Assembly: GCA_003194525.1 (NCBI GenBank)
Contig: NBIV01000320.1
Span: forward strand, 1 to 64,000
DNA: 64,000 bases
From: Gracilariopsis chorda
Lineage: Eukaryota; Rhodophyta; Florideophyceae; Gracilariales; Gracilariaceae
Direction of reading: 5' to 3'
Shown here one piece after another: positions 10,414 through 30,819 of the stretch. Below the pieces are notes generated by a model. The model searched no databases, had not been told where the DNA came from, and saw only the letters and a list, made by a program, of their open reading frames with translations. The first letter of the stretch is position 1; each line of letters starts with the position of its first letter. Both the position numbers and the translations under genes were made by a program.

Positions 10414-10462
10414 CCTCGCGCCTCATCTCCTCACGCCTATACTCACGTTCGTTTTCGGCCCT

Positions 10463-10476
10463 TAAGGAGGGGGATG
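10463..10476 (+). promoter_or_regulatory. Polypurine tract of element A
   Basis: TAAGGAGGGGGATG lies immediately before the 3' LTR, where plus-strand priming occurs in LTR elements. The core TAAGGAGGGGGA recurs inside A at 4021 and 7187 and inside B at 31389. Confidence 0.75.
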
Positions 10477-11389: not shown

Positions 11390-13916
11390 CAACGACCGGA
11401 TTGATCCGGAAAAAGCACTTGAAGCGCTGGACTTTAGCCACGTGCCAGAGTCGCACCGCGACAAACTCCGTACCATGGTACGGGAATTCACCACAATGTG
11501 GGATGGCTCGCTTGGCGAGATAAATGCAACGGAACACCGGATCGACTTAATCCCCGGTGCGCGACCGGTTTCACAACCCCCTTACAGAGCAGGTCCGAAA
11601 GCTCGGGAAGAGGAGCAGTCCCAAGTGGACAAGATGCACCGCGCAGGTGTGATTGAGCCCGCTCAATCACCCTGGGCATCCCCAGTTGTACTGGATTTGA
11701 AGACCGACGGAACCTGGAGGTTCTGTGTCGACTACTGCCGGCTCAATGCCGTCACTGTTAGGGAAACGTACCCTATCCCTCGTATGGACGAGTGTATTGA
11801 CTCCCTCGGAGACGCCACCGTTTTCACGGCTCTCGATGCCAATTGGGGATATTGGCAAGTACCTGTCAGATAGGAGGATCGCGAAAAAACCACATTCACC
11901 TGCTACGCAGGAACGTACCACTTCAAGCGGATGCCATTTGGGTCAACCAATACCCCCCGCCACCTTTCGGCGTGCAGTAGATATTCTGCTCAACTGCTTT
12001 AAGTGGCGGAGTTGTCTTGTCTACCTTGATGATATTATCATCTTCTCCAACTCGTTGGACGACCATCTCACTCACGTCCGAGACGTGCTGACCATACTAC
12101 GCGATGCGTTAATTACCCTCAAGTTGAGGAAATGCGAGTTTTTCACAGATACTGTGAAGTATCTGGGTCACATTATCCGTCCTGGACGGTTAGCAATCGA
12201 GAAAGCTCGGGTCAAACCCCTCTTTGAGACGAAAGAGCCCCGTACTCAAACGGAACTGCGCTCCTTTTTGGGGCTGTTCAACGTCTATTGACGATTTATC
12301 CCGAGCTTTTCGGATACCGCAGCGCCCCTGAACGCGTTGTTGCGAAAGGGGAACCCCCCAAAACTGGGAATACTTACGCCCGAGCAATCGGAAGCCTTTA
12401 ACTCCTTGAAGGAGGCTGTCACATCAGCACCAATCCTACATCTCCAAGAACTTGGGTTACCGTACTCCGTAGATACGGACTCGAGCGACTACCAAGTCGG
12501 GTGTGCTCTTTTTCAAACCACCCCCGAGGGGGAATGACACCCAATTGGTTATTGGTCGCGCTCGGTCAATGTTCATGAGCGGAACTACTCCGTATCGGAG
12601 AAAGAGTGCCTCGCCGTCGTATGGGCGATGACCACTCTGCGCCCCTACCTTATGAGAGTTCACTTCACCGTGTACACGGATCATTCCTCGCTGAGGTGGT
12701 TGATGAATATCTCCGACCCATCGGGACATCTCATGCGCTGGAGACTCCGCCTTGCGGAATATGACTTTCAAGTCATTTATAAAAAGGGCGCGCAGAACAC
12801 CCAAGCCGACTCCCTGTCGCACTTACCCACAAGTGAGGAAGCACTCCCAACGGAGGATGATAAAGTCCCATGTTTCATGGCCATAGACCTGGATGATCCG
12901 GAATGTGCCGTCGAGGCTGGGCCAGAAAACTGGAACGAGGATGCTGACTTTGACGAACTACTCGCATCGCAAGATGAATCTGAGAACCCGTTACCGGGAA
13001 ACTTTGTACCGGTATCACCGGAAGAAATGATCCGAGAACAATTCGGCAACCCATTCTGTACGAGGATTCGTGCCCGTATCAACGGTGGTGAAGATCTCCC
13101 TTTCGGGGTAAACGACAAAGGCTACCTCGTAAGGAAGGTCGAAGCCTGCCCACAGATTGTGGTACCACATTCCCTGCAATCGCGGGTGTTACATCTATCA
13201 CACTACGCCCCCATCGGAGGTCACCCAGGTGGGAGGAAACTCTACCTAGCCCTGCGAAGGGATTTCTATTGGCCCGCCATGGCGGTGGATTGCTACGCAA
13301 CTGTGCAGTTCTGTAGCGAATGCGCGAAGAATCGCGTCAAGCTCCGCAAAAATGCGAAGAAGATGAAACTATTCCCCGCAAGGGCGCCACCCGAGTTTAT
13401 CGCAATTGATCTTCTCGGACCACTACTCACCACAAAACGTGGAAACAAGTTTCTACTTGTCATCACCGACCGCTTTTCTAAGCTGGTACGGACTGTCCCT
13501 CTTCGGAGGATAACCGCTCTCACGGTGGCCCAGGCTCTGGTGACGCACTGGATTTGTGTCTACGGTCCCCCTGTGGAGGTGCTCTCCGATAACGGGAAAC
13601 AGTTCGTGAGCAAGTTCTTCGAGGATGTTTGTCGCATCTTGGGTTTCAAGAACCTTTTCACGACTACCTACCACCCCCAGTGTAATGGGCAAGTTGAACG
13701 GTTTAACCGGACGTTACTCGCGGCGTTACGTTCCTACGTCGCTGACCACCCAACGAATTGGGATCTCTACGCTGATGCGGTAACCTACGCGTACAATACG
13801 CAGGTACACCGGACTACCGGAGTTTCGCCATTCGAGTTGGTTCTATCTAGAACACCCCCACCTGTGGCGCTGGAAACCCAAGCTACCTTGGACAATTTCC
13901 TATCAGTGGGTATCTA
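11390..13916 (+). mobile_element. Ty3/Gypsy element 'B', left visible fragment (RT to integrase)
   Basis: B is a second Ty3 family, related to A but clearly diverged. This fragment starts just before the reverse transcriptase, because A has inserted there; B gag and 5' LTR must lie left of the window. It carries RT (~11.5-12.3 kb, VYLDDIIIFS), RNase H (~12.45-12.8 kb) and integrase (~13.0-13.9 kb, with ITDRFSKL, DNGKQF and QCNGQVERFN). The fragment stops at 13916 where transposon T is inserted, and B resumes at 30820. The integrase half is well kept. The element has a few breaks besides the two insertions. Confidence 0.9.
13915..13916. other. Target-site duplication TA, left of transposon T
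   Basis: TA precedes the left terminal repeat, and TA at 30820-30821 follows the right one. B coding sequence runs up to one copy and continues after the other, so the duplication is supported by the interrupted host element and not only by the dinucleotide. Confidence 0.75.
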
Positions 13917-13940
13917 CGTCTGTGTTTTCGGAATGCTAGT
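13917..13940 (+). repeat. Left terminal inverted repeat of transposon T
   Basis: It begins CGTCTGTGTTTTCGG and ends in GCTAGT. The reverse complement of 30796-30819 matches it at 22 of 24 positions. Copies of CTAG or GCTAG follow repeatedly in the next 270 bp, as is common for subterminal motifs in CACTA-like elements. Confidence 0.85.
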
Positions 13941-14215
13941 TTGAGTGCTAGTTTTTCTAGTTTGGGCGTGCTAGAAAGTCTATGGTGGGCATTCAAAAAA
14001 ATCTCAGAATTTTTGTGCTAGTATATCTAGAACAAAATACTGGCTCAAATGAATGCAGAGGTGAATGTGAGAAAACTAGCAACATTCATACTAGCAGCAA
14101 GAAACTAGCAGTCTATCGTTCAGTTCTCATTCATACTAGAGCATAAATACTACGAACAGTGAAGGGGTGAATGTTAGTCATCTAGTGCCAGATCATTCAC
14201 CTTCGGCGATGAAAT
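13941..14215. repeat. CTAG-rich subterminal region of T
   Basis: The tetramer CTAG occurs about a dozen times in this ~270-bp AT-rich stretch, mostly as GCTAG or ACTAG, and both terminal repeats contain it (GCTAGT / ACTAGC). CTAG is normally a rare tetramer. No coding potential is visible. It is a plausible binding array for the transposase. Confidence 0.5.
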
Positions 14216-14300
14216 CTAGCAGACATGGACGTTTCCGACGCGGTACTCATTCAATTTTACCTCGTCTAATGGATGTAATCTTGAATCTATACTACGCCAG

Positions 14301-14448
14301 TACAGGCCTCCCCTCACCGTATATCGTGGAATGGAAACCGCTTTCATTGTCGTTTCATTTTGCTCCAGGCGTAGTGCGCCTAGAACAAATCGAAAACGGT
14401 AACAAAAACGGCCTCCATTCCACGATAGACGGTGAGGAGAGGCCTGTA
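14301..14448. repeat. 148-bp near-palindrome, TA-flanked hairpin (MITE-like)
   Basis: The arms start TACAGGCCTC and end GAGGCCTGTA. The outer 35 bases of each arm (14301-14335 and 14414-14448) match at 33 positions, and pairing continues imperfectly to a small loop centred on AGGCG-TAGTG-CGCCT. Read as CAGGCCTC...GAGGCCTG between two TA dinucleotides, it fits a mariner-type miniature element. It could also fold as a long RNA hairpin. No ORF is involved. Confidence 0.7.
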
Positions 14449-14699
14449 CCCGTCACAAAACGAAACCACAAAGAAACAAGTTAGAATGCGCTCCCTCCTT
14501 TCATCACGACGCCTCCAAGAACACAACTTGTGTTGAACACACGTACCTCATCCAAACCTCTGCTCATCCCCCCTCGCTGCACCTTCTCCCTTCGACCTCC
14601 CCATTCGCACCTGCAGAAGATACAAATAAACAAACACAAACAAACACTCGTTAGAAACCATCAAACCTCATCCAATCTGCAACTTCTCTCTCGCACATT

Positions 14700-15430
14700 C
14701 GCATCAATAAACAAGCAAAAGTCAGATCTCCATCAAATAAAAAATCCAAAATAACTTCGCCACCGCACTCACCTATAAGAAAAACACCCACTCCTTATCA
14801 CCTAGCACGGTATCCACAACGCTTCGCAGCAGAAACCAAAAACTTGTCAGTTCTCCGTACATAGCCAATACCAGATAACATTTGCACTTAAACTCACCTT
14901 GCAACCACCACTTCTTCGAACCCATTTCCCATCTCGCTCGCTTCGCATCAATAAACAAGAAGGTGTCAGATCTCCGTAAGTAGCCAGTCCCAGAAAACAT
15001 TCTCAATGAAACTCACCTTGTAGCAACCAGTTCTTCGCACCCATTCCCTCATGCCTCTCCCTTCGCGCTAACACACAGAAACATGTCAGATCTCCATCCA
15101 AAAACGGAGCAAAACTAAAACACAACCGCACTCACCTCTATGCTCGCCATTCATTCGCTCTCACCTATCACCGCATCCACAACGCGTCACGACAGCAACA
15201 AAATCTTGTCAGATCTCCGCGCGTAATCGTTACCAGATAACATTCGCAGTCTAACTCACCTTGTAGCAACCACTTCTTCTCACCCGATCCACCCCTTCTC
15301 ATTCATATAGCTCCGTATCAAGAAACAAAACATGTCAGGTCCTCGTCCAGATTGAAAAGTGAACAGCATAGCAAACTCACCTGTTCCTCGCAGTCTTCCA
15401 AGCCCCTAGCTTAATCCCAAAACACTGCCG
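14700..15430. repeat. Subterminal array, six ~120-bp units with TGTCAGATCTCC
   Basis: The core TGTCAGATCTCC, or a close variant, starts near 14720, 14845, 14964, 15084, 15207 and 15333, spaced 119-126 bp. Around each core the same context returns: CTTCGC and an AATAAACAAG-like piece before it, and ACTCACCT...CAACCA(C)TTCTTC after it. Units are diverged from each other. There is no good reading frame. Tandem subterminal repeats are typical of CACTA-type transposons, where they bind transposase. Confidence 0.65.
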
Positions 15431-15866
15431 TTGCTCCCTCTCCCGCATCAACATAGAAAGCGTAGCAAGAGTCAGCACATGTCAACACACGAAAAAGCGG
15501 GACGTACTCAATTGCACTTCACGAACCTGCAAGCACGAGCGGGACGTTCCGCCACATCCAGCGTCCAGGAAATCGCACGCTCCGAAGATCACACTGATCT
15601 ACACCCTCGTCTACACATGTTCCCAACCTCTTCATGCGAAATAATCAGGTCCTCGCCGTCGCTTAAAAAATTTACCAACTTTGAATGTTTTCATTCCAAA
15701 CCACTTTCCCGTCCACACACGTGCCATGCCTGCCGTGCCTGCCACGCGCCTCTCTGGCGCATCACAAGGCCACCTGATTGCTGCTCCTGAGCAGTCATAT
15801 ATTCTCCCGGAACGCCTCCCACGTCTTTCTCATCTCCCACAGACTTACATCCTTCTCCTCTGCACC

Positions 15867-18800
15867 ATGCAGCCTTGTCGCTTCCACAGGTGCTCCTTCC
15901 AGACAAAACTCCACGCCTCCCTTGTCCAACACCAGCGACGTTGTCGCTTCCGCTACACCCCCAACCCCTTCCTCGCCACCATTCCCAAGAACGGCACCCA
16001 GCTCCCACCCTGCACCAAACGACCACGCATTCAGACCGCAGCTCCGTTCGCATCTCAAACCGCCCCTCTGACAACGTTCCGCTCGCGGAAGACGATGAAT
16101 ACCATTCCAGCCAGCTCGCTGTAGCCTTTCGCTCCGCAGACGCAGTCCACCTTCTCCACTCCTTTCTCTCCTCCCCTCGCAACACACCTGCTTCCAGCAC
16201 CCCCGCACCTGCCAACCTCCACCCTATTGTGTCCTACATCGCTTCCATCGCCACCAAGCTCGGCAAACGCAAAGCAGACGAACTCATCAACCTCCTCAAA
16301 GACCTGGATTACTCCCAGGCACTCATCCAACAAATAACTTTCGTCTCCCACTGCCTTGAACTCCATGCAAAGCTCTTCGAGGACACCGTCGGCTCTATCG
16401 GCTTCGAATCCAGAACTATTCGTCACAAGCCCTCAAACATCACCACACTCTCTACCTGAAAAACCCCGTCGATGTCCTCCTCAAACAACTCCGCTACGCT
16501 TCTCGCGCAAACACCTTCTTCCAACCAGTAAGACAGTCCGCGTCAGACGGCTCCCCCGCACACGCTCACCCCATGGCTTCAAAACTCGGTACATGCGTCT
16601 ACAAGGACCTCAAGCACCACATCCTACATTCTCAAGACCCAGATGTTATTTGGCACAACTCCGATATCACTGGCATTGAATATTTCATCGGCTTCGTACA
16701 GCTTTACTCAGAAAAGTCTTCCACCTCGCTCAAGAACTCCTCTATCACCTCCTACCCCCTCCACATCACCCTCCTCAACTTTTCAGACTCCTTCTGCCGC
16801 CATTGCATATCCCGTAACTACACCCTACTCGGCTACTTCCCCACGTTCTTCGAAGCCCCTTCCTCCCCATCCGACGAGGATTCCCTCGAAGACCGCTCGC
16901 TTTCCTCCGCCATCACCCGTACCACCCGAATGGAACTCATTCAAGAAGCTCTGCAAACCATCCTCGAGCCCCTCGCAGCTGTTGCCCTCAAAGGATTTCC
17001 TTTCCGGGATGAAGACCAGGTCATGAAGCAGTGCCACCCAGTCATCGCAAACTATGCTGCAGACATCCCCGAAGCGAAAGACATCCTCGCTGTACTCCAC
17101 GGCACAAAACCGTTGAAGCCCTGCCATAGATGCCTCGTCCCCCGCTCCGACCTCAGCCTCCACCTCAGCTCCCTAACCCCTCGAACCGCTTCCCACACCC
17201 TCCAAACAAGATCCTCACACGACGCCCTTCTCAAGGATGCAAATAACGCCGAACCTCAACGCAGACCGCTCGTCGCAAGGACTCTCAGAGATCAAGCAGC
17301 ATCTCTCCTGCACACAAACTCCCTCTCCCCCTACCACTCCTTCTTCGAATCTTACCCCCTCTTCAACATTTCCCCACTGCTCACCCCATACTCCATCTTC
17401 TCCTTCGAACCCCTTCATAATTTCCACCTCGGTATCTCCAAACTCGTCAAACTCGCAACCATCGAACGCCTGAAGTCCGACAATCTCTTCACCACTGTTG
17501 GCTCCTCCTCGAGATCATGCAAATCCATTCGAAACACCCTTCTCACCCATGCAAACAGCATTCTCGCAGATATCGAAGTCAACTTCTCCGCACCGGGACT
17601 TCACATTGACATTTCCACCGCAGAGAAGGGCAAATCCCTCAACGGCTTCTTCACCCCGGACTGCATCAAAGGCATGCTCGAGGCAAAAGATTACCGCGCA
17701 GTCGACATGGTGTTTCCCTTCGTAGGCGCCTTCTTCGATCGTTACTGCAACGACGTTGACACAGCACCCATCACATCCATCTTCAGGACATACGCCGACC
17801 TCTTCACTACCGCACTCCACTACAACACCACGTCAGAATGGACACACCAACAACTTCGTTCCCTCCAAGAACTCATCAAGCACTTCAAGCATCTCTGCGT
17901 CTCCATCCTCGGCCCTTTCCAGGCTTCTCACTTCGGAACGCTCAAATTCCATCTTCTCGATCACATCGTCGCCGACATCAAACTATACGGAGGTCTCCAC
18001 TTCACTGACGCTGGCATCTACGAACACGCACACCTACTTTTCAAAAACCATTATCGGCGCACATCCCAAAGATCTTCAACCGCTCACAGAGAAACAATCG
18101 ACGCAATTCAACTCACAGAAGGCTTTCGAAACTCAACTGCCATCCCCCACCGCCTTTCCTCCTCCTCAAACTCCCACACACTCCCAGCTCGAAGACATTC
18201 TATGGTTCGCGACGGTACCACCATTCTCTTTTGGGATATAGTCACCGCAGAAAAGTACCTTCGGGCGAACCCAAACTGCTCCAATGCCTCTCTCTCAACA
18301 TCTTCACCTCTTCCACCATATCGTTCATCACCCAAATCTCACGAGACGCAATCTCACCGTTTCACAATCTATGCCTCGAAGCGCTTGGACTTTCCCCTTC
18401 TTCACCCTCCCCCTCTTCTCTCAACTTCTCCGTCGCCAAATCTGCCTTCATCCGCAGCGGTTTCACCCCTTCCTTGCAAGACGTCGACAGAACGTTCAAA
18501 TGCATCCGGTTCAGAGAACCATCGGCCCCTGTTCTCCAGCGCATCTTTGCCACCACCAGCTTCGGTCCTTCAAAACTTCCAAAGTTCTCTCATATTCTCG
18601 TCTCAAGCACTCCACCACCCAACTGCAAGCTCCCCACGGTTTGGTATGTAAGCTTCTTGCCCTTCTCCGCTTCCGCATAAAAGACGATGAGCCAGGTGAA
18701 CGCGAATATGCTTTCGTCCGCTTCTCCGAACTCACAGATCCTCTTGATCACGTGGATGAAACTCTTAACTGCATCACCCTCCGTTGGGCGACAGACGATG

Positions 18801-19033
18801 AACATGCACATACTATTCTCCCCGCTCTTCACGGAACCTCGAATCCTAGCCCCAATGCCGCACCTTGGTTCGGTCTTGTTCCTTTCTCCGCCATCAAAAG
18901 TTCCGTGCATCTTGTTCGCCAGAACTGCCCAGCACGACCTTTCTTTCCGCCCCTTCCATGGCAACAACATCGGTTCTATATGAACAGTTTCTTCTGCGAC
19001 CCACGAGCAAGAGCTTATTCCACCGCAATGTAA
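15867..19033 (+). pseudogene. Plavaka/CACTA-type (CMC) DDE transposase, broken
   Basis: It starts at ATG 15867 with a zinc-finger-like CRFHRC...HQRRC (C-x4-C-x12-H-x3-C), as Plavaka transposases often do. The core follows: FVQLYSEKSS at ~16.7 kb corresponds to the usual YSDKT box, with Glu (16711-16713) where the first catalytic Asp is expected; LLGYFPTF; NYAADIPEAKDI at ~17.05 kb with the second Asp (17062-17064); PCHRC (Cys at 17122 and 17131); FEPLHNFHLGISKL at ~17.4 kb; and LKFHLLDHIVADI with an EHAH segment at ~17.95-18.03 kb. A C-terminal part (VDETLNC...APWFGLVPF, ~18.70-18.93 kb) ends at 19033. The recognisable protein passes through about four frame changes (near 16.05, 16.44, 18.27 and 18.65 kb). 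These could be decay, unrecognised introns or assembly errors. Codons are C-ending and pyrimidine-rich, unlike the cargo genes. Confidence 0.72.
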
Positions 19034-19086
19034 TCAAATTTAGAAACACAGACCCGCTAACTCTAGCAATAAACTTCTTAAACTTC

Positions 19087-21213
19087 TCATTCCTCCGCCA
19101 TCTCTTCTCCACGCCCACCGTCCTCCCCGTCTTCCTTCCCCTCCCCTTCCTCTCTGGGGTCCAACATTTCTTCCTCAACGGCTACCAACTCCTTAAACTC
19201 CCATTCTTCAGGCATGCAACGGCCTACGTAGCAATCAAATACATTACCAAGGTACGTAGTCATTTCATCCAAAAACACCTCGTACTGGACACACAGATAC
19301 ACCATTTGGTTCGATGGCATCCAACACGCAACGGTCCACTCACGTTCCTCATTCCCTACCACTTCAGCCGGATCTTCAGCTTTCACACCATAGTTCACAA
19401 GCTCCTTCCCGTACTTCCCTTCGATCTTCCTTCTCGCAGTCAGTAGGATATCCTCCACAGCAAGCGGGAGATACTTTGCATACAATTTCGAAAACAGCAT
19501 TTGCCACTACCCTCCTCTCCACACATCTTCTTTCAATGCCTCTACCACAGAAGCAATCCACGCATCCAATCGTGCCAAATGCATCACACTTCCATCTACA
19601 TAGCTCGTCTCTCGTTCCCTGCATGGTCGCTCCGCGTCGTACCCCATAAATTCTCTCAACACCTCCACACTCAATCCGTTCTTGAAGTACAAGTCATCTG
19701 GTTCTTCTCCATACTTCGTCGAAGTCACGTCATAACCAGAGAAACATATTCTGTCTAAACCAGACAACCTCCACGCACATAAGATTGGATCTCCCCTCTC
19801 ATCTTTAGGCAACAATTTCTCTTCCACCTCCTTCATCTGCTCTTCATACGCCACAGCCACCTCTTCATCATCCTCCTTCCGCGGTTTCCTAGCAAGTAGA
19901 GTTTACCCCAGGCCAAAGAATAACCTATCCCTCGCATTCCTTTTCCGCACCCCAACAGTATCACTAAGAGCCTGTTTCATGCGCCTCCTCAAACACAGAT
20001 CCCTCTTCAACTCTTCTTCGCAGTCAACCTTAATCCCCATGGCTTCCAACCTTCTCCAAATCGGTTTCTCCAGCTCCATCCGCACCACATGCACCAACAT
20101 CTCATCGCGTCCTCCTTGAAAAAACGGAGTGTAGGCCTTTGGCCCCCACGACTTTCTTCCTAGCGCCAGCTCTATAGGATCCAAAGGCACCATCTCCTTC
20201 TCGTCTATAATCAGAACACTGTGCTTCCTCCCCGGTCCCACCTCTTCAGCCCTGTTCGACCAGTTTCCCTCCGAAACTCTCCTTCCGAGGCACAACTCAC
20301 TGGTCTCCTGCTTCGCATATACCAATATCTTCTCATAAACTCTCGAGGCTACTCCAATGAAACGTATATCAACTTCGATTTCGTACCGTTTCCGACCACT
20401 CTTGATGTCCTCGCCAATCAGTTTTCCTGTTCGACCAGGAATACTCTCTCGTAATGACGTCAGCAGCATCTCTTTCTTCGTAAGTTCATCTTCTAGCCTC
20501 TTCATCTCCCTGTTTGCCAGGTTCAAGCCTAGTTGGAGGCTAGTGTTGTCATCTATTGCTCTTCTTAGTTCCCCCTTTAGCTCTCCAAGCTTTGTCAACA
20601 GCTGATTCCCTCCCATAAACTTTGCGTCTCCATGCTCCGTTCTCTTATGTCCGACTTCCTTCAACAGCTCAATTCCATCTTCCTCCTCCTCCTCAGACCT
20701 TTCCTTCTCCCAGATCCGATCTCCCTTCTCACCACCACCTACACTCGTGCACTGTATCGACTCCCTTCGTATAGCTTCGTCAGCGTATCCATATTCGACG
20801 ATCTTCATAGCATTATCCCGATTGAGCCGGGAAGAGGACCCTTGCGTTGTTCTGCGTGCCGGGACTCTGCGAGTTCGGCCTCCATTTCCGCAAACAACGG
20901 CTGATTGCTTCGTATTCTCCTTCCCTCTACGTCCCTCCCCGCTCCCACGTCGTACTGCAGCTTGAAAACGAACGGGACCCTTCTTGAGTTCCCCAATTCC
21001 CCCCGTACCTTGGTGTACTTCGTCTTGCGGTGTCTCACTCACGTGTTCCTTTGAGGCAAGAGTGCTGCCCTGCTCCTCATTCCTCTCTAAACACTGTTCG
21101 GCTGCCTTCCCTTTACGTCTCTCCTCGACAACACCGCCGTAACTGCCACTAGATCTTCGCCTCTTCGGTACTCTTTCGGGTTCTCCTTCTTCCTCTTCCT
21201 CAATTTCTACCAA
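19087..21213 (-). pseudogene. Large T cargo gene of unknown function, one frame with two in-frame stops
   Basis: One reading frame on the minus strand runs from at least 21213 to 19087, with stops at 19903-19905 (TAA) and 19507-19509 (TAG) but no frame shift. Protein-like sequence continues across both. The first third is low-complexity and charged, and a coiled-coil-like stretch follows (~20.62-20.45 kb, KLGELKGELRRAIDD...REMKRLEDELTKKE). A globular part comes next (RYEIEVDIRFIGVAS, VLIIDEKEMVPLDPIELALG), and the end is acidic. No ATG marks the N-terminus at 21213; the start is probably upstream, possibly including the helical segment at 21416-21826. No family is recognised. It is divergently arranged with the ParB/dioxygenase-like gene across the palindrome at 22.0 kb. 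Confidence 0.5.
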
Positions 21214-21415
21214 AAAACCTTGTGAATGGCACGATTACGAGTAACTGGACCTCTCGGCTGTCTTTCCTTCTTCCTCCTTACGACTTCACTCACCGTACGG
21301 TCCGTCATAGTTGAGGTAGCTCCTTCCTGATTTTCATCTTCCTTCCCCGTTTGTACGATGGTACTTTCACGTCGCCTCTCCGTCGTTTGCAACCCAGAAC
21401 GCGGCGGAACTCTCT

Positions 21416-21826
21416 TCAGGATCCAAGGAATCTTTCCAACAATCCGACCACTTCTGAATTCGCTCGACGATTCTGTAGGATAAACTCTACAATCTTCTCG
21501 AATGTGACATCGCGTTTAGGGACCCCGGAGCCTCTCGATTCCGCGTACGCATCACGGACGGACATAAACACATTCCAGATGGTTGTGAAGCTTTCCGAAA
21601 TGCTCATGTCTGAAAGCGGGTGCGCAGGAGCCCTATGCCCTATCACGGGTGCACCTGAGGTACTCCCCTGTTTAGTGGAGGGGAACGACATGGGTGGAAT
21701 TTCGGCGGGAGATGCACAAATGCACGAAAGATTGCGTTTGAGTTTGAATGGTTGCGAAGGAGATGCTTCGTGGCAACCGAGGAACGAAGACGCCCGTTCT
21801 GATGATTCACGTCCCTCGAACTTCAA
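21416..21826 (-). pseudogene. Possible N-terminal piece of the 19.1-21.2 kb gene
   Basis: The minus frame encodes a protein-like helical stretch (FTTIWNVFMSVRDAYAESRG, then VTFEKIVEFILQNRR...LLERFL) that ends shortly before the next gene begins in another frame. It may be an upstream exon or a shifted N-terminus. No ATG opens the frame. The plus strand is also open here (21351-21830), but its translation looks less protein-like. Low confidence. Confidence 0.3.
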
Positions 21827-21979
21827 ATAGATTTGATTTCGAAGTGTGTAATGGAGCAGGGAGGGAAACTTCGGAGGGTTTTGTTTGGAATGAGGGAGTT
21901 GGGCACTGCAGAACAGACGGAGAAGGTGAAACTTCGAGAATTCGTCGCAGTTCTCCCAGTTCAGGTTGTCGGTCTAACG

Positions 21980-22131
21980 GTGCAGCTGCGCCGGGTGGAT
22001 GGTCTTGACATTGTCGGTCGACAATGTCAAGCACGGACACCAGAATGTTGATTTTTGATTAAATAAGGGGGGTCGTTCTTGACATTGTCGACCGACAATG
22101 TCAAGACCAACCACCCGGCGCAGCTGCGCCG
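21980..22131. repeat. Nested inverted repeat with two internal palindromes
   Basis: Two 53-bp arms (21980-22032 and 22079-22131) are inverted copies with only two mismatches, separated by 46 bp that contain an AT-rich core (GATTTTTGATTAAATAAGG). The inner 28 bp of each arm (22005-22032 and 22079-22106) is itself a palindrome with perfect 12-base arms, CTTGACATTGTC, around GGTC or GACC. The right arm also ends in a perfect 18-bp palindrome CCGGCGCAGCTGCGCCGG (22116-22133). It lies between two divergent cargo genes. It could be an operator, a protein-binding centre, a replication start or the fused ends of a lost element. Confidence 0.85.
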
Positions 22132-22388
22132 GCCTGGGGGTCGGTGCCAGCAATAAAGCGTTGACGCGTGGCAGGAGGGGGGTTAGAGAAGAGGTGGAAA
22201 GGGCGACCGGAATGCTTCCTCCGCAAAGAACTGTGAGCAAAATCACCGATTCCACTTCTTCGTGCCACCTTAGCACCTGGTCCGACTGAAAGGACGCAAA
22301 GAGAACCTCTGCCTTCCCTCAGGGTTGAATGCAGCTGTCAGCACGCGCTGAGTTTCGCGACCGTCTGCACCAGATTACGCGATTCCGT

Positions 22389-22418
22389 GTCGCTTATCGA
22401 AAGGTCGCTTATCGAAAG
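22389..22418 (+). repeat. 15-bp tandem duplication upstream of the ParB/dioxygenase-like gene
   Basis: GTCGCTTATCGAAAG occurs twice in direct succession just before the ATG at 22429, in the 5' leader of the gene. It is probably a small slippage duplication. Confidence 0.7.
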
Positions 22419-22428
22419 GTTTCCCATC

Positions 22429-25400
22429 ATGGTGCGCAAGACTGCAAAGGCGGACAACAGGCGGCACCCTAGGAGGTCTACCAGACCCAGTGCCTCTTTG
22501 CGGAAAGCGAGGGCAAAACCGTCCGATAGCGCAATGCCAACAACGCGCAGCGGCACAAAGCAGCCTAGTGACCCATCCTGGGGGCTGAACCCAAGCGAGA
22601 AGGTGACCCTGGTCGTCCGTCTACCGAATGGGGAGAAGAAGAGCGTGGGGACTGCCTTTGTCAGAGGTGATTCCGGTGCTGGTGGGCACTTGGCGAGGAC
22701 GTTGCATGGGCACGAACTGAAGGGGAAGCCGACAGAGGACCTTGTCGTCATATGGAAGGTGCTCATTGAGGATGGCAAAGATATGCAGTACCCGTATCAG
22801 TTCAAGACGAGTGACAGCGTGCCGAACACTCTGGGAGATATAGAGAGCAACGCTTTCTACTGCTGGGACGTGAACATGATGCAACCTTCTGGTGGCGGAG
22901 CCTCCACTCCTTCCACTCCCGCTGCGAAACCGTCTTCCGCCCAGACTCCTGCTGCGACGAAGAATCTGTCCACCAAGAAGGTGAAGCAGAACACCGCAAC
23001 AAAGGCGAAGGCGAAGAAGTTGACGCAATTGGTGAACTTGAATGACGACGACGGTGATGAAATACACAAGGGTGCGTTGCACTCCAATGTGAAGACGACC
23101 ACCTCCACCGGAAAGGCGAAGGTGGTCAGACTGAGCGATCAGAAGAAAGGAAACAGCACGAATCCCATTGTCACTCCGGCGAAGCCTCCACTAAACCCTG
23201 GAGCCAGCAGTGGGGGAGGTGCGTCGCAGTTACAGACACCGGAGACTGCCGTTTCTGCCCCCCCGAAAGCCTTAACAATGGCTGAGGGAACTGCTAGCAA
23301 CGCAATTGATGCAGGCAGTGGTGGTCAGAGTCAATTGGCGTATCAGACCCAAGTTGCAGAAGCAATTATGGAGGCAGGAAGCAGCGCATCGATGGAGGTT
23401 GTATTCCCAGAGCAACCTGGTGGGGAGGAAGAAGGAAGTGATGATGATGAGGTGCAGTTCGTGGGTTCGAAAGCATTGGCTTCAGAGGCCGAAGTTGATT
23501 TGTTCGACAAGGGAGATGAGCTACCTCCTGATGATGTCGACGACAGTATGCTGGATTCTTCGTTTGATATGAACGACTACACATACGATACGTATTTTGT
23601 CGACATTGACCTCATTAAGCCTCCGGATGACGGTGTGCGAGAACTGAACCTCACCCACATGAAAGAAGTAGAGCAGCAAATAGAGCTCTACGGAATCTTG
23701 GGGTCCGTTGGGAATCTGAGTGTCACTATTATCGGTACGAAGAAGCCGGGAGATGAATGGTTTGAAGGGAACCGAATTGTGGTGGACTGTACTTTGGTTG
23801 ACGGGTTACACCGCTTGAATGTTTACCTCGACCAGAGGAAAACGAATGAAAAACTTCAGGATGTCTGCCACCGGCTCAGTGTATCGTTTTGAAGAAGACG
23901 TGATGGGCTGCCAATGACCATGTCTCAAGTGATTTCGATTGGAAACGCACTGACTGATACGGTTGCTGCGGCTAGAGTGATGTCATTTCGAGAAAAGCTC
24001 TACTCCATTCATTCGTTTATGAAAACGATTGAGAAGGAGACGAAGGTGGACTTCAAGAAAGTCACGCGCACAATGCTACGTGGTGCACCGTTGAAGCGCA
24101 AGGTGATAGGGACTTCAAACCCCAAGAACATGTTGCGGTTTGCGGACATGGGTTTGAGAATGTTCACCGACGAAGACTTCATGTCGAGAATGAAGGAAAT
24201 GTGCTTCAAGTACCCGGAGCTGAGGATTACGCACTTTTCCAGTGACAGGTTCTTCCATCTGAAGGGGGACAGGATGAACTTTGCGTTGGAAGCCTTACAG
24301 GAACACTATGACGTGCGAAGAGCATCAAAAGGGACTGCTATGGGCAGGTTTCAGGACATGAGGTTGCATTCCTTCAGATTTTGTGAGCAAGCTTACAACC
24401 TATTTGAAGAAGTGGCGAAGACGAAGAACATAGGGCTTCACACCGTGTTCAAAACTGAGGTTGTGATAGGGTCCCTGGTTGTTCCTGTTCGAGATTATGT
24501 TGCCAGAAACACCGCACGCCTGGAGAGGGCGGCCACTCCTGTCATGTGGGAAGGAAACATATCGAAGAGGCTGACGAATCTGAAGAAGAGACTGGGAACG
24601 ACGTTCCGTATGGACTTTCAAAAGCCAAATCCAAGTCCTGTCCCTCCCGCACCTGCACGTGTTCCGAAGACACAGGGGCAAAGCGCAGTTCAGGGTAGTA
24701 ATTAGAGCTTGCCCGCGAGGGCAAGTAAGAAGAAGGCTCTGGGCCACTTGAAAGATGGAGGTGCAACGGGGATGGTTTCTGCGGGATCTACGCTGGGGAA
24801 GAGGAAGAGAAAGGTCCGGAAAACAAAGAAACCGGCAGATGAAGACTCGGAAGACGAAGAGGACGCTGAGGAGCTGTTGTTTGAATCAGGTGACGCCGAT
24901 GTGAAAAGGCAGAGAACCGATGATGTTCCTGACTTTGTCATCAACATTCTGAAGCAGAAGCGAGGACGTGAACTACGCCACTTCTTAAGAAAGAATAAGC
25001 TACTGCTTTTCAGTGACGACGAGGGGGGAGAAGATGAAGACAGGAACGATCCAAAAAAGAAGAAGTTTGATGATGAAGTGCCTATGATTCTTCCAGAAGG
25101 ATTGGTCAAGGCCGAGGAGGATACCAATGTGGGGGACTTGAGCTGGCTCAAGTATGTGAGCATGTTGCCCAGCAGGTGGCCCACCGCAACTGCAGATGGT
25201 GTTTAGGGCATGTACGCGTGGATGGACAGGATACATCTTCCCAAGGAGCACTGTTGCCATTTGCTTGGGCCGAACGACATGAGGGGTGTTCATCACACAG
25301 TTTTCTGGCATGGTGCGTTCCAGGAGGTTTTGAGCGAATGGAATAGGGAAAGGAAAGCGTCTGAAGAAGCAGCGCCGGTTCTCAGCGATGCGGAAGCGAA

Positions 25401-26547
25401 CAGTCTCTGGGAGCGGGCGGTGGAGGAGGACTACTACGCCATGGTGTACTTTGCGAAGAAGGCAAGCGAGTTGAAAGAGCGAGGATTTTGTGTGCTGGAA
25501 GGTTTCGGAACGGATGAAGGAATGAGGAGCAGGCTCCATGCCATGAGTGACTTGATGGATGGTGATGTGAGTGAGAAGCTGCTTGGATTCTTCGAGGAGT
25601 ATCTCAATTGCCAACAAGATCTTCGAGAAGCAGAGAATCAAGAGTTCTGGAACCCCATTTTCAATGCTGGGGAGGCAGCTGATGAAGCAGACAGACTGTC
25701 TGGGTCTACGAGGTATATGAATACACGGAGAGGAATCGCGGATGAAATGGAAAGAACGACGGAGAATCACTGGGTGGTGAAGAGGCGGGCGTTGTTGGAT
25801 GCACGTATGAGTCAGATCTGTGTATGCCTAGGATTGGAAGATAACCGAGTGGCGGTGCATAAGATGTTTGCGCCAAAGACTGGGGGTAGAGTGTTGTGTA
25901 CTGGACGCGGCTGTCCAAGACAGAAGCTACATACGGACTTTCAGACGCTGACGATCCCGGAGAAACTGAACGAAAAGAATCCGGGGTACTTTATGATAGC
26001 CTCTGGCAAGTATTCGTTTCCATTTTGGGTGTGCGAGAGGTCTCAAAAGCATTTTGCGACAACAAATGCGGAGTTGGAAGCGGTTTCTGGAGGATACGCG
26101 ACCAGGAAGTTCTTAATTCCACCGTTATCTATATTCATTGGAAGAGGAGATGTGTCCTATGCGGGGGCAGGGAGTAGAGATGCGATCATGGCACAGAATT
26201 TTCTGTTCCGTTACCATATATACATGGTACCAGAGTACTACAAGCTACCGGATGCGGTTCAACTTCAATCGAGTTTTAGACCCAGGTTTGTGGAGGACGA
26301 GGACTTAATACGGAAGGACAAAAGCGGAACGAAAGGAACTATTCTGTTGCCAGGAGCTGGGGATAACGAAGACGGCTCCGCTCATGACAGAGTGTCACAA
26401 GAACCTCTAGAAGACGACGAAGACCCCCAAAATGAAAGTGATGGCGAATATGACCCTAATGAAGATGGAAATGATAATGCAGACGACGCCATTTATACTC
26501 AAGAGGAGGGTGAGAAGGGAGATGAGGATATGGAAGAAGATAGTTAG
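22429..26547 (+). pseudogene. ParB-like + 2OG/Fe(II) dioxygenase-like cargo protein, three in-frame stops
   Basis: A single frame of 1373 codons from ATG 22429 to 26547 is crossed by stops at 23890 (TGA), 24703 (TAG) and 25204 (TAG), with no frame shift. Order: a beta-rich N-terminal region (~57-147, LTLVVRL-like start, ending AFYCWDV); low-complexity Ala/Ser/Thr/Lys; an acidic stretch; a ParB-like region (~385-500) with YFVDIDLIKPP and VDGLHRL at 23797-23817; a helical region (RDGLPMTMSQVISIGNALTD, FREKLYSIHSF); basic/acidic linker; then the dioxygenase-like domain. There KLHTDF supplies the His-x-Asp iron pair (25930-25938), PGYFMI and PFWVCERS follow, IFIGRGDVSYAGAG carries Tyr (26158-26160) where the second iron His of GDxxHAG is expected, and FRYHIYM has the Arg (26209-26211) that would bind 2-oxoglutarate. 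The C-terminus is strongly acidic. ParB-like folds bind DNA or hydrolyse nucleotides; related dioxygenases include nucleic-acid hydroxylases. Function here is inferred. Confidence 0.6.
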
Positions 26548-26667
26548 CGATGACAGATACATTCTAGTACCGCCGTAAATACAGCATTGTCTCATTTATA
26601 TCATGATGCACATAAGAGCTAGGAGTCGTCCTTTTCTTTCTTCATCAGAAACATATGTCTTAACCTG

Positions 26668-27330
26668 TCAACGTTTCTTCTTCAAGAGAGTAACTCGCTC
26701 CACATCTTCACTTTTGTCTTCCAATCTTTTCCTCGTGCCTAGGCAGCTTCTATGAGCACCGCCTGCTCCACCGGCCCCGTGTTGTGCTCCTTTCACTCTG
26801 TTTTTCAAGTGCACCTCAATATCAACGGGCTCTCTAAGCTGCATTTCAAGGACGGTCACTCTGTCTTCTAGAGCATTGTTCTTTCGATAAACTGCTCCTA
26901 TTTCCCACACCAAGCACTCCACGATCCCTTACACATGATCCCCCATCCAGACCCCTGCCATTTTCATACGATTTCGAACAATAGTAACCACGTCCAGTGG
27001 AATCACACCATCAGAAACGCTCCAAGACAGGCCACCATACTCAAACACTACATCTGTCATACAAGTATACAAACTCTCCTTCAACGAGGCAGTTAAAGCC
27101 TTAACCCGGGCCTTCATATCCTTTCTGAATCTGTGCTCCGGCCCACCACCTGCATTTTCTCCTCCATTCGCAGCCATTACTCCAACTCCCAGCTCTCCTA
27201 TCCCAACAGTCTTCTTCTTCTCTTCTGTTCCCTCATAACCATCTGCTTCATCTCTGGGCGGCGTTTCGGGGACTTCCGTGTGATTCAAAAGAGTGAGCAG
27301 TTCTTCATCTCTAATGTACCCACTCGACAT
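26668..27330 (-). pseudogene. Coiled-coil cargo protein, one in-frame stop
   Basis: The frame starts at ATG 27330 and runs to 26668 on the minus strand, with a TAA at 26929-26931 after 133 codons; the same frame stays open for 84 more codons or so. The first part is acidic and then basic (FRKDMKARVKALTASLKESL). The second part predicts a coiled coil (WEIGAVYRKNNALEDRV, LEMQL) and ends in a Lys-rich tail (LLKKKR). It is either a short protein with a trailing open frame or one gene with a nonsense codon. It converges with the ParB/dioxygenase-like gene, 120 bp away. No family is recognised. Confidence 0.45.
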
Positions 27331-27978
27331 CGGGAAAATAGCTTAAGCTCTGAACAAAGCCGCGATATAGTACGCGAGATATTTAGTATCGACGCTAACC
27401 CGTCCTCAAATATTTCGGTCCCCAATTTTCTACTAAAACCGTACTTCCGCGACATCTAAACAGCTTTCCACGTACGCAGCTTGATATTTTAATACTACAA
27501 TATGCGTCTAACTGTGTTTCTGAATCAGAATGAACCAAATATAATTCTTGCCGTGTATGGAGTCGTCTACAAGGAGAACCTTGGCATTGGATATCTTACT
27601 TCAAGCTCACTCGCTTTCTAAAACGTACAATGAACTCACTCGCATACATTAAAAAGTGGTATAGTTATAAGAAAAAACTCTACAATGGGGTATAGAAGAG
27701 AAGCATAGTATGTAGCTCACATATCCTAAATCTTAACAGCTGTGCAAAGACGCCGACTGGAAGGGAATGCGGAAGATAGAAGATGAAGGGGCTACGACAA
27801 CGAAGGTATTCTGTATTGTTGGTCTGTTGTTCTAGAAGTTATTCGTACGGAAGGACCCGAGAGGTTGGGGGTCTGGGGTTTGTTCCGATAGCTGCAATAT
27901 ATCGCTTGAATCTATATTTGATTTCGTAGTCTATAGCGCTGGAGCAGACGAGGAGAAGAATGAATAAAGTGTTAGTCA
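27331..27978. other. Gap between cargo genes of T
   Basis: About 650 AT-rich bases hold the presumed 5' leader of the coiled-coil gene (27331-27480) and the 3' region of the membrane protein gene. I see no coding frame, repeat or RNA gene. Confidence 0.4.
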
Positions 27979-28692
27979 CTAGTGGAGGGAAACCTCTGTG
28001 GGTTGAAAAGGCAGAAGGTTGGATGGACTCCGAAGTGACGTGCGCGAAGAAGACGGGCACAACTCGACGAAGAAGGTGCGAATGGAGATTACGATATCGT
28101 CCAGGAACAATGCTCTTCGAAGAGACTTCCAGGCCGTTGACGTAAAAATTTGTATGATGTTGGAGAGATAGTGTGGCGAATATGGGAAAAGGACTCTGTT
28201 GTTGAACGGGTGGCCTGTGAGGGCGTACGCGGCCAATCTGTCGACAAAGTAGACTGTTAGGGCGAAGAAGAATCCACCGGGAAAGAAGGCGATGGAGGCG
28301 TTCCGTATAGAACAGCTTAGGGAAGCTGGCGTTGGTAGTAGTTCGTAGGCGGCGAATATGTTTGCGTTCAGGGCGAGGAGTCCAGCTATGGCAAATCCTG
28401 GGAAACTTGCGCTGATGGTGCTCAGTCTGCCATAATGTTGAGTGGGGTTCATTGGGCAGAAAGAGAGGTAGCCGAACAACTCCTCTTGAAGGGAGAATGC
28501 AAAGTCGAACAACAAGATATGGAGTACTATCTCGATGATACTGTACAGTATGGTATATTCAGTGTCCGCTTCACAGGAGGAATGGCCGGATAGAAGGAAT
28601 TTGGTGACCACTGGTTTCAAAACACCGTAGAGAGTTCCAATGGCGAAGGAGAGGAGGGAGGTGAAAATTAGTATAGAAAGAAGACTTGCCAT
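27979..28692 (-). CDS. Four-helix membrane protein, T cargo
   Basis: The frame is 237 codons from ATG 28692. Hydrophobic segments lie near residues 3-28 (LLSILIFTSLLSFAIGTLYG), 48-68 (LYSIIEIVLHILLFDFAF), 93-116 (FPGFAIAGLLALNANIFAA) and 132-156 (IAFFPGGFFFALTVYFVDRL). The C-terminal ~80 residues are Ser/Arg-rich and probably cytosolic. The first segment could act as a signal anchor. It matches no family I can name. The frame is open without a shift back to ~29.13 kb, so it may be the C-terminal half of a longer product, or the second gene of a pair. Membrane proteins are unusual cargo for a cut-and-paste transposon. Confidence 0.5.
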   Translation of the reverse strand: MASLLSILIFTSLLSFAIGTLYGVLKPVVTKFLLSGHSSCEADTEYTILYSIIEIVLHILLFDFAFSLQEELFGYLSFCPMNPTQHYGRLSTISASFPGFAIAGLLALNANIFAAYELLPTPASLSCSIRNASIAFFPGGFFFALTVYFVDRLAAYALTGHPFNNRVLFPYSPHYLSNIIQIFTSTAWKSLRRALFLDDIVISIRTFFVELCPSSSRTSLRSPSNLLPFQPTEVSLH

Positions 28693-28746
28693 ATGGAATG
28701 GATTGTTCGAAAGGGATTGAGAGGAACGAATGTAGTTGGATATGTG

Positions 28747-29124
28747 TCAAAGGTATGGGAGGTCTTGTAGTAGAAGGTGATTTTGCAAGAACCGGGGGTC
28801 AGAGGGGTTGTCGCGCAGGAGTTGGTCAATGTTGGTCATTTCGGCTTTCACTTCATCACTTAGAATGGATGCTGCGCCTGAAAGATATGACTTGTTTGTG
28901 TCCCTGCAGTACTGTAGCTTCAAGCAATTGTTGAAACGAAGGTAGGTTTTGTTGGGGAGAATGTCGAACGTGAGAGTTGCTCGAACGTCATTGTGGAGGA
29001 AGACGTATTGTTGGGAGCGAAAGTTCTCGAACAACATGTTTAGAGGTGCTAGGTCAAGGGCGGAACTGTTGATGAAGAACGGGAGAGAGAGAGAACGGGC
29101 AGGTGTCTCTGATTTTATATGCAA
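28747..29124 (-). CDS. Small protein upstream of, and in frame with, the membrane protein
   Basis: This is a 125-codon frame that has no ATG at its open end; the first internal ATG is 29 codons in (LNMLFENFRS). It contains FLHNDVRATLTFDILPNKTY, KLQYCRDTNKSYLSG and a charged helical end. It stops (TGA) at 28747, and 54 bases later the membrane protein starts in the same frame, with a protein-like stretch between them. Either it is a separate small gene or the N-terminal part of one gene with a nonsense codon. No family is recognised. Confidence 0.35.
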   Translation of the reverse strand: MHIKSETPARSLSLPFFINSSALDLAPLNMLFENFRSQQYVFLHNDVRATLTFDILPNKTYLRFNNCLKLQYCRDTNKSYLSGAASILSDEVKAEMTNIDQLLRDNPSDPRFLQNHLLLQDLPYL

Positions 29125-29676
29125 CAGAATAGCTTTATTGAACTAGATGATGGCGACTAGATGAAGGAAGATTAAAGACAGGACCAAACGGTTGTTCTAT
29201 GCGTTTTGAACGCGTTTCTGTTCATACTCAATGCACAATATTGAGAAGTGAGGACGAAGAAGATGAGAAACACTTTCTGGTAGAAGTGGTATAAGAGGTC
29301 CAGAATGTGCGCGGAAAAGGTGGAAAGGGTTATGAAGAAGAAATAATGAGGTTTATGTAAATGGGGGCTGTGGGATGGCGGTAGAGGTAAAGAATATGAG
29401 TTTATTGGACATTGAAGGGGTACATCTGGGGTGGAGAGAGGGGGTAACGATATGAGAGAGGTTATTGGGTGGGGTAGAAATGAAAGTAAAAGCGGAAAGT
29501 GCTACATATTTTGAAATATAGTGTATGGGGGTTTTTGGAAGGGGGTAAAATGGCGGGGAAGTGAATGCGCGGGAGCAGCTGGCGCGTGAGGTTCTCACCG
29601 GGGGCTTTCCACTTATTTCGATCTCTACCGCTTCTTTTGATCCTTGCCGCTTTCTTTGAGCTGTGTTGTGTTTGAG
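29125..29676. other. Non-coding stretch before the last cargo gene of T
   Basis: About 550 purine-rich bases with no reliable frame. Several GGGGT/GGGGG runs occur around 29340-29560. A CT-rich segment (CTCTACCGCTTCTTTTGATC) sits just upstream of the ATG at 29677 and may be part of its promoter. Confidence 0.35.
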
Positions 29677-30519
29677 ATGACGAGTGGCCTCGGATCGCGC
29701 AGCTGGGGACAGTTCCTTGCGGAGATTGAGGAAGCCGTGGCTGTGGGGATGCGGAAGAAGCGGGACCAGGAGGAAGCGGAGGAGGAAGGGTTGGAAGGAG
29801 TGCTTGCGTTGTGTTCTAGGGCGATGGTGAGGGAGGTGGGGAAGGAAGTGGAGAGGGGTGCGCGTGGGATGGGGAAGAAGATTGCAGCGTTTGTGGTTCG
29901 AGAGGTGGGAGTGTTGAGGGAGGAGCAGGAAAGGTTTCAGGCGCGGCTACGGGAGGTGGAGAAGTTGGTGAAGGAGGGAGGTGGAGTTGGGGAGAGTCGT
30001 GGTGGACGGCGGGGCTCACCCGTGACTCTGACGCCGAATGGTAAGATGACGGGTGGTTTTAGGTATGTGAGTGGCGATGGGATAAGCCTTGGACCTGGAG
30101 ACGGGGGCTTTGATGGGGAAGTCGAGAAGGAGGGGGTACGGTTTGTGGCCGAGACTGCGGAGAGCGAGGGGGAGGTGTGCAAGGGGAGGGTTGGGGAGAA
30201 CAGGCCGATAGTGAGAGAGGACTTGAAGGGATGCGGTAAGCGTGGAGTGGGTGGAGGGAAGGAGGCGAAGAAGGGCGCTAGGAAGGGGACTCGTGGGCTT
30301 AGGAGTGTAGGAGAGGCGGTGAGGGAGGCAGAGGGAATCTTGGGTGATCAGCGCAGGAGGAGGGGGGAGCTGGATGGTAAGGTTGATGAGGAGAGGCGTT
30401 GTGGACGTTGGGGGAAGAGAGTGAAGAAGGAGAAGGAGGAGAGCTTACCGGACGACTTCTTCAAACTGACGTTCCCGGAGACGGAGACGCAGCCGCCTCT
30501 CGGTGGAGAGTGGTTTTGA
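29677..30519 (+). CDS. Basic coiled-coil protein, last cargo gene of T, 280 aa
   Basis: Intact frame from ATG 29677 to 30519. Residues ~8-110 are largely helical and charged and look like a coiled coil (EIEEAVAVGMRKKRDQEEAE, VREVGVLREEQERFQARLRE). A Gly/Arg-rich linker and a Lys/Arg-rich second half follow (KKGARKGTRG, RWGKRVKKEKEE), and the end is acidic/aromatic (LPDDFFKLTF). The basic content suggests a nucleic-acid-bound or nuclear protein; that is inference. The helical motif VREVGVLREEQ..F..RL resembles VWEIGAVYRKNN..LEDRV of the 26.7-27.3 kb gene in spacing, so the two may be distant paralogues. No family is recognised. It is the only T cargo gene that looks whole. Confidence 0.5.
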   Translation: MTSGLGSRSWGQFLAEIEEAVAVGMRKKRDQEEAEEEGLEGVLALCSRAMVREVGKEVERGARGMGKKIAAFVVREVGVLREEQERFQARLREVEKLVKEGGGVGESRGGRRGSPVTLTPNGKMTGGFRYVSGDGISLGPGDGGFDGEVEKEGVRFVAETAESEGEVCKGRVGENRPIVREDLKGCGKRGVGGGKEAKKGARKGTRGLRSVGEAVREAEGILGDQRRRRGELDGKVDEERRCGRWGKRVKKEKEESLPDDFFKLTFPETETQPPLGGEWF

Positions 30520-30795
30520 TGGGTGTCGTCGTGATATGGGTTGGTAAGAGCGGTTCTTAAGCTCCAGACCCGTTATTCACATCTATCGAATGACATACAA
30601 AACTCCACCGTAGGATAGCGACGTCTTTTGCGTTCGCTTTGCATTCATAATATGGAAGACTCTGTGCTAGAATCGAATGCGAAAAATGGCTGGCACTCTA
30701 AAAAATTAACGAAAATTACCTCTGCATTCGCGATCCGTCATTTTCTGCAGAAGTTTTGGACGACATATTTCAATCAGACCAAAGTAGCCCCAAAT
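30520..30795. other. Right subterminal region of T
   Basis: These ~275 AT-rich bases between the last gene and the right terminal repeat have no convincing frame. They include GTGCTAGAAT and ATACTAGCG, echoing the CTAG motifs at the left end, and a TGGCACTCTAAAAAATTAACG stretch. The left-end 120-bp repeat array is not found here. Confidence 0.4.
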
Positions 30796-30819
30796 ACTAG
30801 CGTTCCGAGAACACAGACG
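30796..30819 (-). repeat. Right terminal inverted repeat of transposon T
   Basis: It reads ACTAGCGTTCCGAGAACACA then GACG on the plus strand, and is the inverted partner of 13917-13940 with two mismatches. The TA at 30820-30821 is the second copy of the target duplication, after which Ty3 element B resumes. Confidence 0.85.

Follow-up and report, generated by a model that had tools for sequence, protein, structure and literature searches.

Enlarged EnSpm/CACTA families of 16–20 kb with 4–5 ORFs have been described from the red alga Chondrus crispus (Kojima, Bao and Jurka 2013, Repbase Reports; via PMC6431247). The fungal PlavakaA and PlavakaB groups are described as encoding a Plavaka transposase, with a dioxygenase in some families, and as having termini TGT..ACA with 2-bp duplications (PlavakaA) or termini CATCA..TGATG (PlavakaB) (Kojima 2025, PMC12730594). 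The 'Plavaka giant repeats' of Amoebidium are reported as large and multi-gene with a Plavaka transposase; their gene matches include red algae, and many of their genes encode tyrosine recombinases (Sarre et al. 2024, PMC11244446). A bacterial-type amino-methylase, N4CMT, has been reported from another eukaryotic group, the bdelloid rotifers (PMC8885841).

Here we compare with these systems a 16.9-kb element in a window of 64,000 nucleotides (the whole stretch of DNA that was analysed). As a CACTA-type element with five conserved genes, measuring 16.9 kb in the window and at least 20.8 kb in its fullest copy (C1065), it fits the description of the Chondrus crispus elements; since EnSpm elements of this size and ORF number are already reported in a red alga, it is of a known kind. 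This comparison is between descriptions and not gene sets, and the two may be the same lineage. None of the papers listed by the literature searches reported methylase-SET or ParB-dioxygenase genes in such elements. Like the Amoebidium giant repeats as described, the element is large, multi-gene and equipped with a Plavaka transposase; unlike them, it has no recognised tyrosine recombinase, there being no Pfam match to one among the scanned ORFs of its genes A, B, C, D and E, although a divergent one in B could escape. Chlorophyll a/b-binding proteins were matched 15 times in the host genome, in seven cases at E below 1e-19, and the fungal host first suggested by Plavaka and Ty3 was therefore rejected. 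For a phycobilisome family there was a single match, weak though above the cut-off (E 9.8e-5); a red alga is probable in view of a relative in Gracilaria, the modest count of these genes and the Chondrus description. Judged by its anatomy and gene identities, the element is very likely a single copy of a giant cut-and-paste transposon of Plavaka type, and its host is photosynthetic, probably a red alga.

The element ends in 24-bp terminal inverted repeats at 13917–13940 (plus strand; the same border occurs in other copies) and 30796–30819 (minus strand), flanked by TA target-site duplications at 13915–13916 and 30820–30821. With the TA counted in, the arms 13915–13940 and 30796–30821 are 92% complementary over 26 nt, and agreement at 22 or more of the 24 bases would arise by chance at a given pair of positions with probability 9e-12. 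A subterminal inverted repeat (14300–14449; 56-nt arms, 84% complementary) and subterminal direct repeats (14686–15349; spacing about 119–126 bp) lie within the left part. Rejoining the flanks across the element produces an open integrase reading frame, and the rejoined sequence, with a single TA, matches at least 40 places at 96–97% over 207–208 of 208 bases (40 scored of 703 candidates). These uninterrupted Ty3 copies, of which at least 40 were listed, are the empty-site counterparts of the insertion. The inverted ends, the TA duplication and the Ty3 sequence on both sides, all reported in a sequence-only reading of this DNA that also suggested looking for an empty site, were thus borne out, and 13917–30819 is confirmed as a single transposon copy inserted in a Ty3 integrase. 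Because of this location the insertion is younger than the host Ty3 copy, which supports the dating proposed earlier as a relative date only.

Searches of the genome score only the best candidates, so that locus counts are lower bounds. With the left-end query, at least 20 places including the window matched at 84% or higher, as did one 204-base piece at 97%; with the right-end query at least 24 places matched at 83% or higher, four being partial matches. Ten further copies were retrieved, nine of the same family and one diverged (C53). The left border was present in eight of the nine family copies and the right border in seven, the remainder being truncated or running off the contig, and a matching 2-bp duplication was found in six of eight copies, C12 and C3 lacking one.

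Gene A (15750–19033, plus strand, with its start projected from copy C228) is frameshifted in the window copy and encodes a Plavaka transposase, as the sequence-only reading had suspected: the domain PF18759 was matched by the window ORF at E 3.6e-20 and by the intact open frame of C228 (1091 aa) at E 3.5e-23. Terminal inverted repeats with a target duplication of 2–3 bp, as in Plavaka (CMCT/CACTA-like) transposons, are present, and the earlier placement as a large member of the CACTA/Plavaka group is supported. Relative to the fungal groups as described, the transposase is common to both and the 2-bp duplications to PlavakaA, whereas the termini and the photosynthetic host differ. Most copies examined have CGT..ACG and not the TGT..ACA of PlavakaA, a TGT left end occurring in C28 only, and the CATCA..TGATG of PlavakaB was not seen at the ends of the copies.

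Gene B (19090–21234, minus strand) encodes a conserved protein with no assigned function and contains stops in the window copy. Gene C persists in the window as a remnant (21416–21973, minus strand), the N-terminal end of a methylase-SET gene whose remainder is deleted. By its domain matches, the product of gene C is predicted to be a fusion of a DNA N6/N4-methylase with a SET domain: the methylase part exceeds the cut-off for Pfam PF01555 and has a DPPY-type and an FxGT motif, and the SET part exceeds that for PF00856. All 23 aligned relatives covering the region have DPPY or DPPF, and the SET motifs are also kept; in the family of the window element this first methylase motif reads DAPY, including in C1065, where one stop interrupts the gene. 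Like N4CMT of rotifers as described, gene C would be a bacterial-type amino-methylase in a eukaryote; unlike N4CMT, which is a host gene not known to contain a SET domain, it is a transposon-encoded fusion.

Gene D (22429–26547, plus strand) is one long intronless frame with a product of about 1,400 residues, in which a ParB-like N-terminal part appears to be joined to a probable 2OG-Fe dioxygenase C-terminal part. The window copy has three in-frame stops and a change in a putative iron-ligand residue. Short introns at these stops were considered and rejected, other copies reading through with the exception of C28, which has one stop in common; in three relatives gene D is one open frame of 1062–1417 codons. 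The N-part is predicted to adopt a ParB/sulfiredoxin fold, the ParB group being found by VIA-align, and Foldseek on the two-domain model returned nothing with an E of 0.001 or below. The motif of 2-oxoglutarate/Fe dioxygenases is HxD..H..R, and among the rows covering this region of the C-part the proximal H is present in 8 of 10, the distal H in 9 of 10 and the R in 9 of 10, making it at motif level a probable 2-oxoglutarate dioxygenase; its modelled structure has pLDDT mostly under 50. The Pfam search with D reached no family, a comparison of its sequence profile with the PDB had no convincing result (best E 0.092, uncharacterised protein / ctAda3), neither gave a significant sequence match to TET/JBP, and PHROGs and NCBIfam searches returned no match. 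The putative dioxygenase differs from those of the fungal Plavaka families, as described, in its junction to a ParB-like part and its lack of a Pfam match.

Between the methylase and dioxygenase genes lies a 26-bp palindrome, usually in two or three sites per copy in this family and in the window at 22005–22030 and 22079–22104. Among 63 sites, the 50 listed all fall on contigs carrying the family; the exact palindrome was not found in C330, C2 or C53. Its retention in C192 and C842 as diverged relatives was rejected: because C192 has an end 96% identical, and C842 a gene C up to 89% identical, to the family, these loci are no evidence for deep conservation. In its predicted fold, the N-terminal part of D resembles the bacterial and plasmid CTP-dependent DNA clamps ParB, Noc and KorB, and, as with these, palindromes that are candidate sites adjoin gene D; unlike them, D lies in a eukaryotic transposon and is joined to the probable dioxygenase part.

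Gene E (27842–29142, minus strand) encodes a multi-pass membrane protein and is broken in the window copy; in C228 it is an open frame of 434 codons. ORFs at 29641–30519 and 29353–29946 have no third-position excess and are not counted here as genes. Of the 'at least five other genes' claimed in the sequence-only reading, B, D and E (all broken) and a fragment of C stand, and the two right-end ORFs lack support; what it called cargo is a gene set common to the whole lineage and broken in this copy.

The gene order A, B, C, D, E is constant in dozens of diverged relatives, at protein identities of about 30–50%, with the strand fixed for A, B, C and D and variable for E. This comparison used nearest-neighbour pairing of locus lists that retained matches cut by contig ends and held 105 of 114 matches for A, 96 of 106 for B, 147 of 150 for C and 85 of 101 for D; second pieces of one locus (also left out of the E list) and some weak matches were omitted, another A list was one match shorter still, and an alternative D list merging two sets of matches held 121 loci. 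Within the family, N/S in every frame tested was close to neutrality or above it (0.87 to 2.18 times the neutral expectation), a usual finding in dead copies. A third-position excess is seen in the frames of the C remnant and of E, with no phase bias in sites common to copies. Because the family amplified in a star-like manner and its copies are decayed, the within-family selection test is uninformative.

That the extra genes are passengers, with no role in the life of the transposon and kept by location alone, would fit the amplification of deletion derivatives without them and the absence of clear purifying selection among copies. We nevertheless consider it improbable, as their order and catalytic motifs (DPPY/DPPF in all 23 relatives aligned over that region, and the SET motifs) persist over deep divergence and some relatives keep a frame open for as many as 1417 codons.

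Still less probable is a short transposon that owns the ends and received the internal genes in separate insertion or capture events. The sharp-edged lack of the C and D segments in some copies can be read as absence before insertion, but the shorter copies compared consist of the C1065 sequence minus blocks, with overlaps of 0–10 bp at the junctions, and the gene order is shared with distant relatives; together these findings largely refute this explanation. The retrieved copies have borders and gene content in common, the same genes lying between the same ends, so that the observations that the sequence-only reading named as able to overturn it (genes elsewhere outside these ends, or a short element with separate cargo insertions) were not encountered. 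At the junction 21417–21418 the window copy lacks 3.5 kb of C1065; it derives from the longer form by internal deletion and is dead. C1065 and C249 have their left flank in common and are probably the same insertion.

Large viruses can have DNA methylases, SET domains and multi-pass membrane proteins, which counts towards a virus-like origin. Such an origin, in which large DNA virus genes acquired a Plavaka transposase, is also favoured by the description of the Amoebidium repeats alongside endogenised viruses (PMC11244446), but we regard it as very remote, no capsid, polymerase or packaging gene being recognised in the scanned subset of ORFs and no relative of D being found in IMG/VR viral contigs scanned with the D alignment (one peptide pattern).

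The reading that we prefer is thus a single multi-gene transposon, and its fixed set of transposase, methylase-SET and ParB-like/dioxygenase genes suggests an element that manages its own chromatin; the prospects of such an epigenetic role are about even. The product of A would cut and paste at the 24-bp ends, C would mark DNA at N6 of adenine or N4 of cytosine and would also mark protein, perhaps histones, and D would bind DNA through its ParB-like part and oxidise a methylated substrate. Together, these products may mark or unmark the chromatin of the element, allowing it to escape silencing. Copies C12, C3, C228 and C330 have spread without most of gene D, and since copies lacking parts of B, C or D are still dispersed, these genes either work in trans or are dispensable for the individual jump. 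A more specific and rather unlikely version is a cis-acting epigenetic identity system, in which a ParB-like CTP clamp would be loaded at the palindromes between the two divergent genes and would spread along the element with a dioxygenase 'eraser', the methylase-SET 'writer' encoded by the divergent partner gene would mark the DNA and histones of the element, and deletion derivatives keeping the palindromes would parasitise it in trans. Its odds are lowered by the finding of the palindromes in this family only.

If the proposed activities are correct, a eukaryotic cut-and-paste transposon would itself encode the means to write, and probably also to erase, chromatin marks, in an arrangement fixed across its lineage. 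It would offer a source, open to testing, of algal enzymes that write 6mA or 4mC, and would connect the mobile DNA of eukaryotes with methylases of bacterial type and with ParB-like clamps. Finally, it would suggest that a cut-and-paste element of very large size can be a stable system of several genes and not an accident of gene capture.

The transposon in the window (13917–30819) is bounded by inverted terminal repeats at 13917–13940 and 30796–30819, each flanked by TA. Once the flanks were rejoined with a single TA, the frame of the interrupted Ty3 integrase was open, and the 208 rejoined bases were 96–97% identical to at least 40 uninterrupted Ty3 copies (best 40 of 703 candidates scored). 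Thus, the unit is a single insertion that is younger than the Ty3 copy it interrupts. This confirmed the 24-bp ends, both TAs and the interrupted integrase of the sequence-only reading, and supplied the empty site that it had proposed to look for in another copy of the retroelement. Several Ty3-type frames surround the unit (1–13916 and 30822–32734), including one element at approximately 3.4–7.3 kb with long reverse transcriptase and integrase frames, of which the interrupted Ty3 is a second copy. A 643-aa open frame on the minus strand (8585–10516) has no obvious tie to the transposon and is perhaps a retroelement or host protein.

The same reading had suggested searching the genome for copies with the same borders, and these were found. 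The left end gave at least 20 matches at ≥84% plus one partial match, with four others at 73–75%, and the right end at least 24 matches at ≥83%, four of these partial; these counts are lower bounds, as scoring was limited to the best candidates. We fetched nine further copies of the family, named here by contig, and as a tenth C53, a diverged relative with ends at approximately 75%. Both borders are present in C12, C3, C228, C28 and C330, and in C125, which has approximately 0.8 kb of additional sequence near the right end; in C1065 and C190 the contig stops before the right end is reached, and C2 is without its left end. Eight copies could be read at both flanks, and matching dinucleotides were detected in six of them: TA in the window copy, C125 and C53 (the last by eye, its left end being decayed), CT in C228, AT in C28 and CA in C330, but not in C12 or C3. 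The C330 copy (192–13797) also interrupts a Ty3-type integrase, its codon of insertion differing from that in the window. The copies at C3:355381–368476 and C228:1455–14888 have a common right flank and different left flanks, a pattern consistent with recombination between copies or with an assembly join.

Divergence between copies was 1.4–3.7% over comparable parts (median 2.9%), and the ten copies have 177 shared variable sites versus 1823 private ones, which is the pattern that one burst would leave. When 15916–30818 was compared with nine other copies, the commonest private substitutions were C>T (227) and G>A (194), as expected from deamination.

The 20,844-base contig C1065 is nearly all element and holds every block. 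The other same-family copies compared, including that of the window, each correspond to the C1065 form with the loss of at least one internal block (C2 was aligned to the window copy only), with overlaps of 0–10 bp at the deletion junctions; C1065 7897–11432 is missing from the window copy. Internal deletions after failed gap repair are usual in cut-and-paste transposons.

The chlorophyll a/b-binding family has 15 matches in this genome, seven at E <1e-19, which point to a photosynthetic eukaryote, probably a red alga. Origin of the element from a fungal contaminant is disfavoured because a strong match to this family and element sequence occur on the same contig for C12, C2 and C27, the C27 element end being a 73% relative.

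The Plavaka-like transposase reported inside the unit is borne out for gene A, which matches Plavaka (E 3.6e-20) in the window despite being frameshifted and is a single open frame of 1091 codons in C228. Gene B, on the minus strand, has diverged genomic loci at 34–49% identity and no Pfam family with a significant score. Gene E has open frames of 434 (C228) and 417 (C204) codons, with five or six hydrophobic segments in a simple hydropathy scan.

Only the N-terminal end of gene C remains in the window. In C1065 it spans 852 and 142 codons of the same frame on the minus strand, and the product exceeds the cut-offs for N6_N4_Mtase (E 1e-13) and SET (E 1.2e-5) and matches the solved structures of the MboIIA and DpnA methylases. 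Among 5.8 billion proteins searched, 32 relatives were found, of which 24 were aligned and scanned: the methylase model was matched by all of these and the SET model by 22, with DPPY or DPPF in 23/23 rows covering that region and conserved SET motifs. These matches strongly indicate an amino-methylase fused to SET. Methylase-SET relatives with 1065-codon open frames occur on C332, C745, C241 and other contigs.

Gene D, indicated to be ParB-like and probably a dioxygenase, occupies 1373 codons (including the final stop) on the plus strand of the window, with three extra in-frame stops that are mostly absent from other copies; its putative distal iron-ligand codon is altered here and in C190. 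Three relatives are single open frames that measure 1417, 1349 and 1062 codons between stops. As the red alga Gracilaria domingensis has a gene D relative with a hypothetical-protein annotation, the transposon lineage may be present there.

Between genes C and D lies the palindrome TTGACATTGTCGNNCGACAATGTCAA, which has 63 genomic sites at ≤3 mismatches and none for the reversed control. All 50 sites listed are on contigs with the window family, and none is shown in diverged relatives. Copies usually have two or three palindromes, mostly spaced by approximately 75 bp, located in C1065 between the starts of gene C (11529) and gene D (12518). Deletions in C12, C3 and C228 end short of the palindromes, which are retained; the exact palindrome was not found in C330, C2 or C53.

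Gene order extends to relatives. For 105 gene A matches, B is 1.5–3.0 kb downstream on the opposite strand in 59/61 pairs, C is downstream on the opposite strand in 64/67, mostly near 5.1 kb, and E is downstream on either strand in 43/44. D is downstream of A on the same strand in 39/43 pairs (121 D loci), and C is upstream of D on the opposite strand in 54/54 (85 D loci). Random placement predicts 0.68 A–C pairs within 8 kb, against 63 observed. As at most 14 of the 64 A–C pairs can involve the family's own C loci (≥73% identity), at least 50 are from relatives, whose C pieces are 31–46% identical. Many A, B, C and D matches are without a partner within reach, which may reflect contig ends, decay or scoring of best candidates only. 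A–C spacing classes at approximately 1.8 and 3.6–3.9 kb suggest amplified deletion subfamilies.

Here we show a transposon with cut-and-paste anatomy, 2-bp duplications and a multi-gene form. Published accounts describe EnSpm families of 16–20 kb with 4–5 ORFs in Chondrus crispus (review, PMC6431247; source Repbase Reports 2013), fungal Plavaka families with TET/JBP genes (Kojima 2025, PMC12730594) and, for Amoebidium, Plavaka giant repeats that encode tyrosine recombinases (Sarre et al. 2024, PMC11244446); see also PMC9674265, PMC8290104, PMC12633428, PMC8885841, PMC13297926 and PMC4455052. Titles and abstract openings among the matches listed, subscription literature and Repbase Reports aside, report neither a methylase-SET nor a ParB-dioxygenase gene in such transposons. 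Judged by its recurrence across relatives, the gene set is a conserved system and not an accident of one family, in which the divergently transcribed genes C and D would control the element's chromatin, the ParB-like part of D perhaps loading at the palindromes and then spreading.
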